A DNA stretch of 52,489 nucleotides, taken from NCBI GenBank assembly GCA_017435465.1, contig JAFSEX010000051.1:1-52489 (forward strand), read 5' to 3'. This document shows positions 24,659 to 51,725 of the stretch, in pieces. A program made the translations under genes and the position numbers. The stretch's first letter is position 1. Each line of letters starts with the position of its first letter. Source of the stretch: Bacilli bacterium. GTDB lineage: Bacteria; Bacillota_I; Bacilli_A; RF39; UBA660. The notes beneath the pieces are model-generated. The model made no database searches. It had not been told where the DNA came from and saw only the letters and a list, made by a program, of their open reading frames with translations.

Positions 24659-24685
24659 AAATAGTATCAAATAATAATACTATTT
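24659..24685. terminator. Terminator overlapping the rluB stop
   Basis: AAATAGTAT/ATACTATTT stem, 9-base loop, with a U-tract on the minus strand. The rluB stop codon lies in the stem. Confidence 0.6.
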
Positions 24686-25393
24686 AAACATTCCATATAA
24701 TTGTTTTACCTCTTTAATTGTTAATTTTCTATATTCTCCTGATTTTAAAGTTCCAGTTGTAAAGAAAGCAAAAACTTCTCTTTTTAATTTTAATACTTCA
24801 AACCCAACTGATTCAAACATTTTTTTAACTTGATGATTTCTACCCTCATGAATTGTTAATTGAACAATACAAGTATTTGTTTTCTTATCAACTTTTTTTA
24901 GTTTTACTCTTGCTTTAGATGTTTTATATCCATCAATCATTACACCATTTTCAAGTTTTTTTATTGCCCCAACATCAATTATTCCTTTAACTTTTGCAAT
25001 ATAAATTTTATCAACCTTATTTTTAGGATGTGTAAGTAAATTTGATAATTCGCCGTCATTTGTCAATAATAATACTCCAGTAGTATCATAATCTAATCTT
25101 CCAACGGGATAAATTCTTGCATCAGTCTTGATTATATCTACAACAGTTTTTCTATTTTTATCATCTTTTGATGTTGATACTACTCCTCTTGGTTTATATA
25201 ATAAATAATATTCCTTAGGATCTTTAGCAAGCTTCACACCATCTATTTCAATTAAATCTTTTTCACTAACTTTAATACCTAATTCATTTATAATTTTTCC
25301 ATTAACACTTACCCTATTATCTAATATTAATTTTTCTGCTTCTCTTCTAGAACAATATCCATTATTTGCGATAACTTTTTGTAATCTTTCCAT
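24680..25393 (-). CDS. rluB: 23S rRNA pseudouridine synthase, RluB/RsuA family
   Basis: 237 residues. N-terminal S4 RNA-binding domain (ERLQKVIANNGYCSRREAEKLI...VSVNGKI) and the synthase domain with the catalytic GRLDYDTTGVLLLTNDGEL motif, then the family segment EGRNHQVKKMFE. It isomerises uridine in rRNA; RluB versus RsuA cannot be fixed by motif, though length and context favour the Gram-positive RluB. SD GAGGTG five bases before ATG; extended TATAAT at complement 25418-25423. Confidence 0.88.
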   Translation of the reverse strand: MERLQKVIANNGYCSRREAEKLILDNRVSVNGKIINELGIKVSEKDLIEIDGVKLAKDPKEYYLLYKPRGVVSTSKDDKNRKTVVDIIKTDARIYPVGRLDYDTTGVLLLTNDGELSNLLTHPKNKVDKIYIAKVKGIIDVGAIKKLENGVMIDGYKTSKARVKLKKVDKKTNTCIVQLTIHEGRNHQVKKMFESVGFEVLKLKREVFAFFTTGTLKSGEYRKLTIKEVKQLYGMFK

Positions 25394-25444: not shown

Positions 25445-25473
25445 TATACAAATAATTAATTATATGATATTAT
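25445..25473 (+). promoter_or_regulatory. Antisense promoter of peptide locus A
   Basis: TATACA (25445-25450), 17-base spacer, TATTAT (25468-25473) with extended TGA. It points right, toward the 3' end of the leftward peptide gene. Confidence 0.55.
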
Positions 25474-25479
25474 GTATAT

Positions 25480-25583
25480 AGATGAGAAAAAAACCATAAA
25501 ATAAATAAAGGAACACTTAATATTGGCGTGTTGAGTGAACCCATTATAGGTTGTCACCTAACTACGGTTAGGTGAATTTTTTT
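25480..25583 (+). ncRNA. Predicted antisense RNA of peptide locus A
   Basis: About 105 bases from the promoter at 25445-25473 to a strong Rho-independent terminator: CACCTAAC-TACG-GTTAGGTG at 25555-25574 followed by seven T. It ends exactly at the peptide stop codon (25582-25584) and is fully complementary to the 3' untranslated part of the peptide mRNA. It also contains a near copy of the mRNA 5' end (25510-25542). Ends are predicted, not measured. Confidence 0.55.
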
Positions 25584-25715
25584 ATACTTTTAAAAATAAT
25601 AACTTTATTAATAAAAGAATGATGATAATCAAAGAAAAAATTAAAAAATCTTTTTTTGTCATAATCATCACCTCCAGTTTTTTCTTGGAGGTTCACCCAA
25701 CATATTAAATGTTCC
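25510..25715. repeat. Inverted repeat enclosing peptide gene A
   Basis: Arms at 25510-25542 and 25690-25715. On the minus strand, GGAACATTTAATAT plus GTTGGGTGAACC at the 5' end pairs with the 3' arm, with about seven extra bases in the latter and a few G-U pairs. The 5' arm begins where the transcript is predicted to start, so the whole mRNA closes end to end. Confidence 0.75.
25582..25662 (-). CDS. 26-residue hydrophobic peptide A, type I toxin-like
   Basis: Begins MTKKDFLIFSLIIII, continues as an uninterrupted hydrophobic helix and ends LFLKV. Basic N-terminus plus one helix is the form of membrane-acting type I toxins. Peptide C at 51595-51678 shares the K-K-D-F-L-I-x-S-L start. The SD GGAGG is six bases before the ATG and lies in a 7-bp hairpin (ACCTCCA/TGGAGGT, 25670-25692), which should hide it from ribosomes. 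An in-frame ATG two codons earlier abuts the SD. Promoter at 25724-25752, antisense RNA opposite the 3' end. Toxic action is inferred. Confidence 0.65.
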   Translation of the reverse strand: MTKKDFLIFSLIIIILLLIKLLFLKV

Positions 25716-25723
25716 TATAATTA

Positions 25724-25752
25724 AGTATACCATAGGTTAACGTTTGAGTAAA
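25724..25752 (-). promoter_or_regulatory. Promoter of peptide gene A
   Basis: Minus strand TTTACT (complement 25747-25752), 17-base spacer, TATACT (complement 25724-25729) with extended TGG. The start near 25716 coincides with the first base of the inverted repeat. Confidence 0.6.
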
Positions 25753-25758
25753 TATATT

Positions 25759-26277
25759 TTAAAATAAAATTGATACAACTATAATACTAGAGATTATCCC
25801 AACTAAATCAGCAAGTAATCCTACCCAAAGGGAATATCTTATTTTTTTTATACCCACAGTTCCAAAATATAAAGTCAAAATATATATTGTGGTATCTGTG
25901 CTTCCTTGAATTGTAGATGCTAATCTTCCAATAAAAGAATCAGCACCAAAGTTTTGTAAAATATTATTTAAAACGGATAGTGAAGCAGATCCCGAAACAG
26001 GTCTTAAAAGTGCCATAGGTAAAATATCCATTGGTACTTTTATTAATTCAAAAAAAGGGTTTAAAAAACTTAAAATAAAGTCTAATACATTACTTTTAAT
26101 TAAAATATTTACTCCAAGTATCATACCAAGCATATAAGGAAAAGTAGAAATACCAATTTCTACTCCTTCTTTTGCACCATTTACAAATACATCATAAACA
26201 TTTACTTTTTTTATAATTCCGTATAAAACTACAAATAAAACTAAAAGAGGAATAAATATATTTGATATTAAAGTCAT
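25759..26277 (-). CDS. spmB: Spore maturation protein B
   Basis: A 172-residue membrane protein of the nucleoside-recognition/gate family: GAKEGVEIGISTFPYMLGMI, MALLRPVSGSASLSVL and GSTDTTIYILTLYFGTVGI are SpmB hallmarks. With SpmA it is linked in Bacillus to spore core dehydration. It overlaps spmA by 4 bases and follows dacF in the order seen in sporulating Bacillota (D,D-carboxypeptidase, spmA, spmB). Spm homologues also occur in non-sporulating species. Confidence 0.9.
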   Translation of the reverse strand: MTLISNIFIPLLVLFVVLYGIIKKVNVYDVFVNGAKEGVEIGISTFPYMLGMILGVNILIKSNVLDFILSFLNPFFELIKVPMDILPMALLRPVSGSASLSVLNNILQNFGADSFIGRLASTIQGSTDTTIYILTLYFGTVGIKKIRYSLWVGLLADLVGIISSIIVVSILF

Positions 26278-47984: not shown

Positions 47985-48013
47985 TTGTTTTAGAAACAAA
48001 TGTTTGGTATAAT
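47985..48013 (+). promoter_or_regulatory. Promoter of peptide gene B
   Basis: TTGTTT (47985-47990), 17-base spacer, TATAAT (48008-48013) with extended TGG. The spacer segment ACAAATGTTTG is identical in the promoter of locus C, at the same spacing. Confidence 0.7.
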
Positions 48014-48019
48014 TAATAT

Positions 48020-48237
48020 GGATACATTTGAAAATATCAGAGGTTTTCCCTTTCTTTAAAGAAAGGTGGTGGTATTATGAACAAAAGAGAAATAGCTTTA
48101 TATATCATAATTCTACTATTATTCTTTATAGTAATAGTTTTACTATTTAAATAATAAAAACATCTGATTTCAACAACTGTTGATTTCAGATGAATATCCA
48201 CGGGGATTACATCTGATTCAGCCAATCAAATGTATCC
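48020..48237. repeat. Inverted repeat enclosing peptide gene B
   Basis: GGATACATTTG (48020-48030) pairs perfectly with CAAATGTATCC (48227-48237), which is followed by a T-rich tract. The 5' arm starts at the predicted transcription start, so the mRNA closes end to end as at locus A. Confidence 0.8.
48077..48154 (+). CDS. 25-residue hydrophobic peptide B, type I toxin-like
   Basis: MNKREIALYIIILLLFFIVI then VLLFK: basic start, one hydrophobic helix, Lys end. The SD GGTGG is eight bases before the ATG, next to a perfect 18-bp palindrome (CCTTTCTTT/AAAGAAAGG, 48049-48066) that takes in its first bases. Promoter, end-to-end fold and antisense RNA match locus A. A longer minus-strand frame across this region has no SD and is a shadow. 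Toxicity is inferred. Confidence 0.65.
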   Translation: MNKREIALYIIILLLFFIVIVLLFK

Positions 48238-48265
48238 TTTTTTATTTTATTCAAGTTTCCTTGAC
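48152..48265 (-). ncRNA. Predicted antisense RNA of peptide locus B
   Basis: About 114 bases from the promoter at 48272-48300 to a terminator: arms CATCTGA-TT-TCAACA and partner at 48161-48192, with U5 on the minus strand. It ends at the peptide stop codon and covers the 3' untranslated part of the peptide mRNA. Confidence 0.6.
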
Positions 48266-48271
48266 GTATTC

Positions 48272-51274: not shown

Positions 51275-51378
51275 TATACCTCCTTTTTTTGTTTCTAAGA
51301 CTCGCCATTAAGGTACATAATCATATGTTTTTTTAAACCTTTTCAGTGCGGTTGTAGAGTTAGAGGCCCTACAAACAT
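51275..51378 (-). ncRNA. L21 leader (ribosomal autoregulatory 5' UTR)
   Basis: About 100-base leader between promoter and rplU. On the minus strand it holds a TGTAG/CTACA stem with loop GGCCTCTAACT, an AACCGCAC...GGTT stem, and ATGGCGAGTCTTAG before the SD. These match my memory of the Bacillota L21 leader family. Presumably a ribosomal protein binds it to limit operon expression. Confidence 0.7.
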
Positions 51379-51412: not shown

Positions 51413-51504
51413 ATTTTTTTATGATTTTTATTTAATAATGTTATCTTTTTATTTTATGTGTTTTAGGTTGTATATATGATTTTTTAAAAATTAGTTCAAA
51501 ATCA

Positions 51505-51533
51505 TTGTTTTGCGTACAAATGTTTGCTGTAAT
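51505..51533 (+). promoter_or_regulatory. Promoter of peptide gene C
   Basis: TTGTTT (51505-51510), 17-base spacer, TGTAAT (51528-51533). It shares ACAAATGTTTG at the same place as the promoter of locus B. Confidence 0.55.
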
Positions 51534-51594
51534 AAATTAAGAACATTTAATAAGTTGGGTGGAGCTAAACTTCTAAAAGAAGGGAGGCGATACA

Positions 51595-51678
51595 ATGAAC
51601 AAGAAGGATTTTTTAATTCTATCTCTAGTAATTATTATCTTCCTTTTATTATTATTACTATTTATAGTCCTAATATAA
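51595..51678 (+). CDS. 27-residue hydrophobic peptide C, type I toxin-like
   Basis: Starts MNKKDFLILSLVIIIF and stays hydrophobic to the end (FIVLI). Eight of the first ten residues match peptide A. SD GGGAGG lies about eight bases upstream, next to a CTTCT/AGAAG hairpin. The leader GAACATTTAATA-AGTTGGGTG is nearly the leader of locus A, and AGTTGGGTG (51553-51561) can pair with CACCTAACT (51687-51695) past the stop. A convincing antisense promoter was not found here, so this copy may be an orphan or be controlled in trans. Confidence 0.6.
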   Translation: MNKKDFLILSLVIIIFLLLLLLFIVLI

Positions 51679-51725
51679 AAGAGAATCACCTAACTCATCC
51701 ATAAACTATACCCATAAAAATAGAC

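Follow-up and report, generated by a model that had tools for sequence, protein, structure and literature searches.

A putative type I toxin-antitoxin cassette family of uncultured Bacilli with predicted end-paired mRNA, sequestered SD and convergent antisense RNA

The window analysed here is the whole 52,489-nucleotide stretch of contig JAFSEX010000051.1 from a Bacilli bacterium (assembly GCA_017435465.1). Between spmB and an rluB-like gene it carries a compact cassette, locus A, with predicted convergent transcripts (Table 1). The leftward promoter TTTACT-17-TATACT aims at the GG at 25715, the mRNA start predicted in a first-pass annotation of the sequence, on one arm of an inverted repeat; its -10 box and spacing align in 54 loci. 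The SD is hidden in a stem of 7 bp, ACCTCCA/TGGAGGT, just as that annotation described. The stop codon of the peptide is TAA at 25584-25582, and the start has been corrected: ATG 25662 is the most likely start codon, preferred because of homology with other loci.

On the opposite strand, the expected rightward promoter with a 17-base spacer is present (TATACA-17-TATTAT, 25445-25473), and the region holds a single terminator-like site, at 25554-25575 on the plus strand, where shuffles lead one to expect 0.1. The T-tract of this terminator does overlap the peptide stop; its stem had been called GC-rich, but only four of its nine pairs are G-C. Because the conserved 3' arm lies beyond it, the predicted mRNA must read through this antisense terminator to reach that arm. 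The mRNA probably ends in the U-rich tract at 25487..25509. The annotation was right about the pairing of the two arms; its placement of the actual mRNA end at the 3' arm is less secure, because in locus A the mRNA strand forms only a weak hairpin at that place. Many other loci, too, have a weak mRNA-strand hairpin at the putative 3' end, which could be made differently and may be something other than a classical hairpin terminator.

Table 1. Predicted features of locus A and of the related copies in the window
Feature	Position	Strand	Detail
Locus A, 290-base cassette			flanked by spmB, 25759-26277 (-), and rluB-like gene, 24680-25393 (-)
mRNA promoter	25724..25752	-	-35 TTTACT 25752-25747; 17-nt spacer CAAACGTTAACCTATGG; -10 TATACT 25729-25724
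mRNA leader 5' arm, GGAACAUUUAAUAUGUUGGGUGAACC	25690..25715	-	predicted transcript start 25715
SD hairpin, ACCTCCA / TGGAGGT	25670..25693	-	SD GGAGGT at 25675-25670
Peptide ORF, 26 aa, MTKKDFLIFSLIIIILLLIKLLFLKV	25582..25662	-	single hydrophobic span; pN/pS 0.32 in own subtype
3' arm	25510..25542	both	on the mRNA (-), pairs with 5' arm
U-rich tract past 3' arm	25487..25509	-	CCUUUUUUAUUUUAU in most loci
Antisense promoter, TATACA-17-TATTAT	25445..25473	+	TTGACA or TTGTNA here in most other copies
Antisense RNA, ~105 nt	25480..25584	+	complementary to entire mRNA 3' UTR; covariance model R1 match
Conserved antisense-RNA linker, AUAAAAUAAAAAAGG	25487..25509	+	opposite strand of mRNA U-rich tract
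Hairpin HP2 in antisense RNA	25514-25523 with 25528-25537	+	within 3' arm; repeats mRNA 5' sequence
Antisense terminator hairpin H3 and U-tract	25554..25583	+	strand CACCUAAC able to pair with leader GUUGGGUG
Second intact copy in window	47985..48269	mRNA +; antisense RNA 48269-48151 -	ORF 48077-48154 MNKREIALYIIILLLFFIVIVLLFK
LexA-like box, GAAACAAATGTTTG	47993-48006		in promoter of second intact copy
Truncated third copy (copy B)	51500..51694	+	ORF 51595-51678 MNKKDFLILSLVIIIFLLLLLLFIVLI; promoter and leader kept

A search of the window's genome returned ten further related stretches, about a dozen loci in all, with the same layout and compensating sequence differences. A covariance model built on the antisense RNA (R1) has 12 matches in this genome, including 48151-48269 of the window; the truncated copy in the window has lost its 3' arm and antisense promoter. 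Beyond this genome, R1 matches occur in 26 of 37 same-family genomes (24 genera), at up to 14 per genome and in some cases as tandem arrays, and in none of 23 genomes of other families. The same restriction appears in wider samples: across the class, all 31 positive genomes belong to the host family (31 of 51) and 0 of 344 other-family genomes are positive, and all eight positives of a phylum-wide sample are of the host family. Named records bearing the antisense 5' end are MAGs labelled uncultured Bacilli, Tenericutes and similar, including Candidatus Ventrenecus; RF39 is the probable order. Pfam, NCBIfam and Rfam, the last searched at gathering as well as permissive thresholds, yielded no credible match, and none of their families covers the cassette. 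Tandem arrays at L087, L086, L102, L093 and L092 hold two to four cassettes at a spacing of ~300-650 nt, with subtypes sometimes mixed. The window also contains a ribosomal protein L21 leader at 51288-51363 on the minus strand (RF00559, 52 bits).

The claimed pairing of the mRNA ends is borne out in locus A itself and by its relatives. The 5' arm (25715-25690) and 3' arm (25510-25542) form a duplex of -36.7 kcal/mol, whereas 2000 shuffles of the arms average -12.6 and get no lower than -28.0, and only locus A reached that value among 1740 same-geometry segment pairs sampled across the window. In more than 50 loci the two arms covary. Since MAFFT alignment of both arms shifted the anchors, the count of covariation used fixed ones (the first GG after the -10 box and the CC before the U-tract). 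At the first 12 arm positions, 87% of cells are paired in 29 distinct arm pairs under strict anchoring, with 77 double-changed cells; pairing is 94% when well anchored, and the controls gave 28-50% for slid arms and a mean of 67% (maximum 79%) for whole-arm shuffles. One locus (L096) lacks one base in both arms relative to the other loci and keeps full pairing. Another (L066) joins the leader of one subtype to the 3' arm of another, with 8 of 12 pairs, which may reflect recombination of adjacent cassettes or an error in assigning the pair.

Folding points to two coexisting elements. RNAfold gives the outer 5'-3' helix a mean probability of 0.94 over 51 loci and closes the SD hairpin alongside it, as in all states tested; the SD region is ~80% paired on average in the predicted ensembles of the 51 loci. 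As is typical of type I systems, the primary toxin transcript is thus predicted to be inactive through sequestration of its SD. Masking the 3' UTR brings no gain in predicted SD accessibility (0.18 against 0.20). We tried the 5'-3' helix alone as the device that hides the SD and found it unsupported by folding; it is not needed for that role, because the SD hairpin is predicted closed in all tested states.

The antisense terminator could also reach the leader. In locus A the suggested contact between GTTGGGTG and CACCTAAC amounts to 8 bp including one G-U, and an equivalent recurs across loci, leader-to-terminator complementarity being found in nearly all of them. Between the leader and the antisense terminator strand, pairing energies are -15.3 kcal/mol for cognate partners, -12.8 within a subtype and -8.9 between subtypes. 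The four hairpins of the antisense RNA show 406 double-changed cells over 84 sequences, against 148 in shuffles, in an alignment that had been fitted to the structure.

Palindromic structures can in principle act on either strand, and we told the two apart by the fact that what pairs as G-U on one strand becomes an A-C mismatch on its complement. Of 52 loci, 46 have the stabler 5'-3' helix on the mRNA strand and 3 on the opposite one, the outer pairs of this helix including 39 G-U and 5 A-C; the SD hairpin region favours the mRNA strand in 34 loci and the other in 4 (n=52). The antisense strand is favoured by HP2 (37 to 9) and HP1 (27 to 2), and the terminator hairpin is strand-neutral (15 to 20). 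By this test, the 5'-3' and SD helices belong to the predicted mRNA, and HP1 and HP2 to the predicted antisense RNA. This helix-by-helix asymmetry supports one structured transcript on each strand, in keeping with the earlier proposal of an antisense RNA opposing the mRNA. The case for the antisense RNA is drawn from sequence throughout: promoter, terminator, covarying hairpins and strand asymmetry.

Sixty-five of the 84 antisense matches passed a filter for a hydrophobic ORF ending near the antisense terminator, a few of which are doubtful picks by the automatic rule (e.g., L074_611, L103 and L116_580). Nearly all encode 24-37 aa with a hydrophobic span, within the range of the small hydrophobic peptides, usually below 60 aa, of type I systems, and in most loci no more than a dozen or so nt separate the stop codon from the antisense terminator. 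Peptide subtypes include MxKKDFLI..., MTKRExSxFIIILLLF... and MKKRxFxIKxLR..., plus rarer ones. In three subtypes pN/pS is 0.32, 0.33 and 0.46, against 0.55-1.80 in shifted frames, for sequence pairs that are not independent; by this measure (pN/pS ~0.3) the predicted peptides are under purifying selection. A divergent subtype (L105, L115) has peptides ending in KIVPTV, and in it the antisense-terminator-like hairpin has apparently shifted into the 3' end of the ORF.

The empty site in a genome of the same genus (G001), in which spmB and rluB are adjacent across a short intergenic stretch that lacks the cassette, indicates by comparison that the cassette is gained or lost as one unit. In another genome (G002) no cassette follows spmB and a different gene is found there instead. 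Next to antisense RNAs that are still intact, some toxin ORFs are broken; poly-T slippage, nonsense mutation, frameshift and IS insertion were all seen. Such a pattern is as expected for a putative toxin-antitoxin pair, subject to a search bias, because the loci were found via the antisense RNA. A search for carriage on mobile elements gave no match in plasmids or phages, and two patterns went unmatched in viral contigs. In two genomes (L015, L080) the end of an IS3-like transposase gene adjoins the antisense terminator hairpin, which suggests that the hairpin is an insertion target.

Many copies appear to be wired to DNA damage. The box AACN4GTTY lies between -35 and -10 in 24 of 54 distinct toxin promoters, where shuffles give 0.23 expected and a maximum of 3 in 500; controls within the ORF (0/54) and upstream (0/55) are empty. 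In the same genome this box precedes recA, lexA (twice) and a Y-family polymerase gene, and it lies near the recA start in 10 of 12 family genomes checked and in none of the checked genomes from other families. The RAACN4GTTYG boxes at lexA (two), recA and the Y-family polymerase (L243, L245, L235) define the SOS motif of the lineage. Because 24 of 54 toxin promoters carry this LexA box of recA and lexA, many cassette copies are probably SOS-induced. Locus A is not among them: its promoter lacks the LexA box and has a GTTAAC motif instead, common to three other copies in its genome. The genome contains five instances of TTTACT-N-GTTAAC, four at cassettes, and a reversed control pattern is about as frequent; no regulator was identified for this promoter class. 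More LexA-like boxes in the same genome (L234, L236, L240, L242) lie near an ORF6N/KilA-N-like ORF and unknown ORFs, which are possibly further SOS genes.

Locus A is very probably a member of a new multi-copy type I toxin-antitoxin cassette family. The sequences themselves show its architecture and covariation, the strand on which each helix acts, the constraint on the coding region, the number of copies, the restriction to one lineage and the LexA boxes. Comparative data support each element of the first-pass proposal: paired mRNA ends, a hidden SD and an antisense RNA able to compete for both ends. The toxin-antitoxin reading, the copy number, the lineage restriction and the LexA boxes go beyond that annotation. 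We infer toxicity, transcript ends, RNase III decay, the activation step and SOS induction along the following lines. An mRNA of ~220 nt would encode the 26-aa single-span membrane peptide, the presumed toxin, and during its synthesis a local hairpin would hide the SD. Once the 3' end is completed, the 5' leader would pair with it over ~20 bp, so that the part upstream of the SD hairpin is buried and the mRNA becomes blunt at both ends. The convergent antisense RNA of ~105 nt, the putative antitoxin, would bind the mRNA all along the 3' UTR between the stop codon and the 3' end, giving a full duplex that RNase III would cut; the antisense terminator strand may also pair with the leader. Toxin would be produced when mRNA outruns antisense RNA, for example on removal of LexA from the LexA-box toxin promoters. 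A further, tentative idea, one we think could well fail, is that the antisense RNA acts as a two-ended clamp, HP2, as a copy of the mRNA 5' arm, competing the leader off the 3' arm and the terminator strand binding the leader so that both mRNA ends are sealed together, and that leader, HP2 and terminator hairpins co-evolve at each locus as a specificity code.

Other readings can be weighed against the same observations. Were the inverted repeat the terminal repeat of a MITE-like small mobile element and the ORF incidental, the many dispersed copies, the tandem arrays and the empty spmB-rluB site would be accommodated. The repeat is internal, however, with conserved sequence extending beyond it on both sides into two promoters; its arms vary between subtypes yet covary within each locus; the ORF is under purifying selection; and G-U use is strand-specific, which implies RNA function. 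On these grounds we reject the mobile-repeat reading, to which we give scarcely any credence.

An unlikely alternative is that the peptide is a regulated small membrane protein, used in stress or signalling under the same antisense control, and not a toxin. Purifying selection conserves the peptides, whose role as toxins is putative, and many copies look SOS-linked, which would suit such a protein. Against it stand the hidden SD, the paired mRNA ends and a constitutive-looking antisense RNA, which are hallmarks of type I toxins (PMC6733600), as well as the ORFs broken by frameshift, nonsense mutation or insertion beside intact antisense RNAs and the multi-copy, patchy occurrence. It is also most improbable that the antisense RNA serves mainly as an activator, taking the 3' arm, freeing the leader and opening translation. 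Full complementarity to the 3' arm would let it displace the leader, but predicted SD accessibility stays flat when the 3' UTR is masked, the full 3'-UTR duplex is an RNase III substrate, and the antisense terminator strand has complementarity to the leader as well.

If the toxin-antitoxin interpretation holds, this is a new type I family in an uncultured lineage, found via RNA architecture and not protein homology. A specificity code at each locus, should it exist, would allow one small genome to harbour many near-identical cassettes, some of them LexA-controlled. The cassettes offer a large natural covarying set for studying the evolution of 5'-3' mRNA folding and antisense specificity, and the SOS link that they suggest for type I peptides in Bacilli can be put to the test. 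The G-U versus A-C asymmetry test is a general way to infer the acting strand of palindromic structures that lack RNA data.

Among known systems, AapA/IsoA of Helicobacter and Campylobacter and hok/sok share with the cassette a hydrophobic peptide of ~30 aa, 5'-3' long-distance pairing in the inactive mRNA, a transient SD-hiding hairpin, an antisense RNA and multiple chromosomal copies (PMC6733600), and sequence relation to either is undetectable. Long-distance pairing of the predicted toxin mRNA is found here too, but IsoA lies opposite the small ORF, whereas the cassette antisense RNA begins downstream and is confined to the 3' UTR, terminating at the stop codon, so that it is not opposite the toxin ORF. 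AapA relies on the long-distance pairing itself to block the ribosome site, while in the cassette the SD hairpin coexists with it. Fst/par of pAD1 resembles the cassette in its convergent promoters, ~30-aa membrane peptide, SD-hiding 5' stem-loop and an antisense RNA that touches the mRNA at terminator hairpin and leader (PMC7472228). In par, however, one bidirectional terminator is shared and direct repeats cover the start site; the cassette mRNA reads through the antisense terminator, locus A's sole terminator-like site being on the plus strand, and its repeats are inverted. The Fst PXXXG motif is absent from all 25 representative cassette peptides (alignment A4). Because defining features of each fail, the cassette is filed with neither AapA/IsoA nor Fst/par; it fits type I toxin-antitoxin systems in general, with putative toxicity and neutralisation.

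In BsrG/SR4 and TxpA/RatA of B. subtilis and RCd of C. difficile, toxin mRNA and antisense RNA are likewise convergent and overlap in the 3' part of the former, and their long complementarity suggests RNA degradation (PMC6563280). The toxins of these systems are longer than the cassette peptides (for example 34-59 aa in C. difficile) and mostly prophage-borne, and no homology to these systems was found, the Rfam BsrG model scoring 10 bits against a cut-off of 55. SOS-induced type I toxins are exemplified by tisB/istR-1, dinQ/agrB and symE/symR, and the SOS-linked type I systems named in that source are from E. coli only (PMC6563280). Many cassette promoters carry LexA boxes as well, with SOS control suggested by these boxes and locus A excluded, whereas the E. 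coli systems are SOS-induced; host phylum, peptides and antisense geometry differ. The best reading of these comparisons is that the family may merge hok/AapA-like end-to-end folding of the mRNA with a BsrG/par-like convergent antisense RNA.
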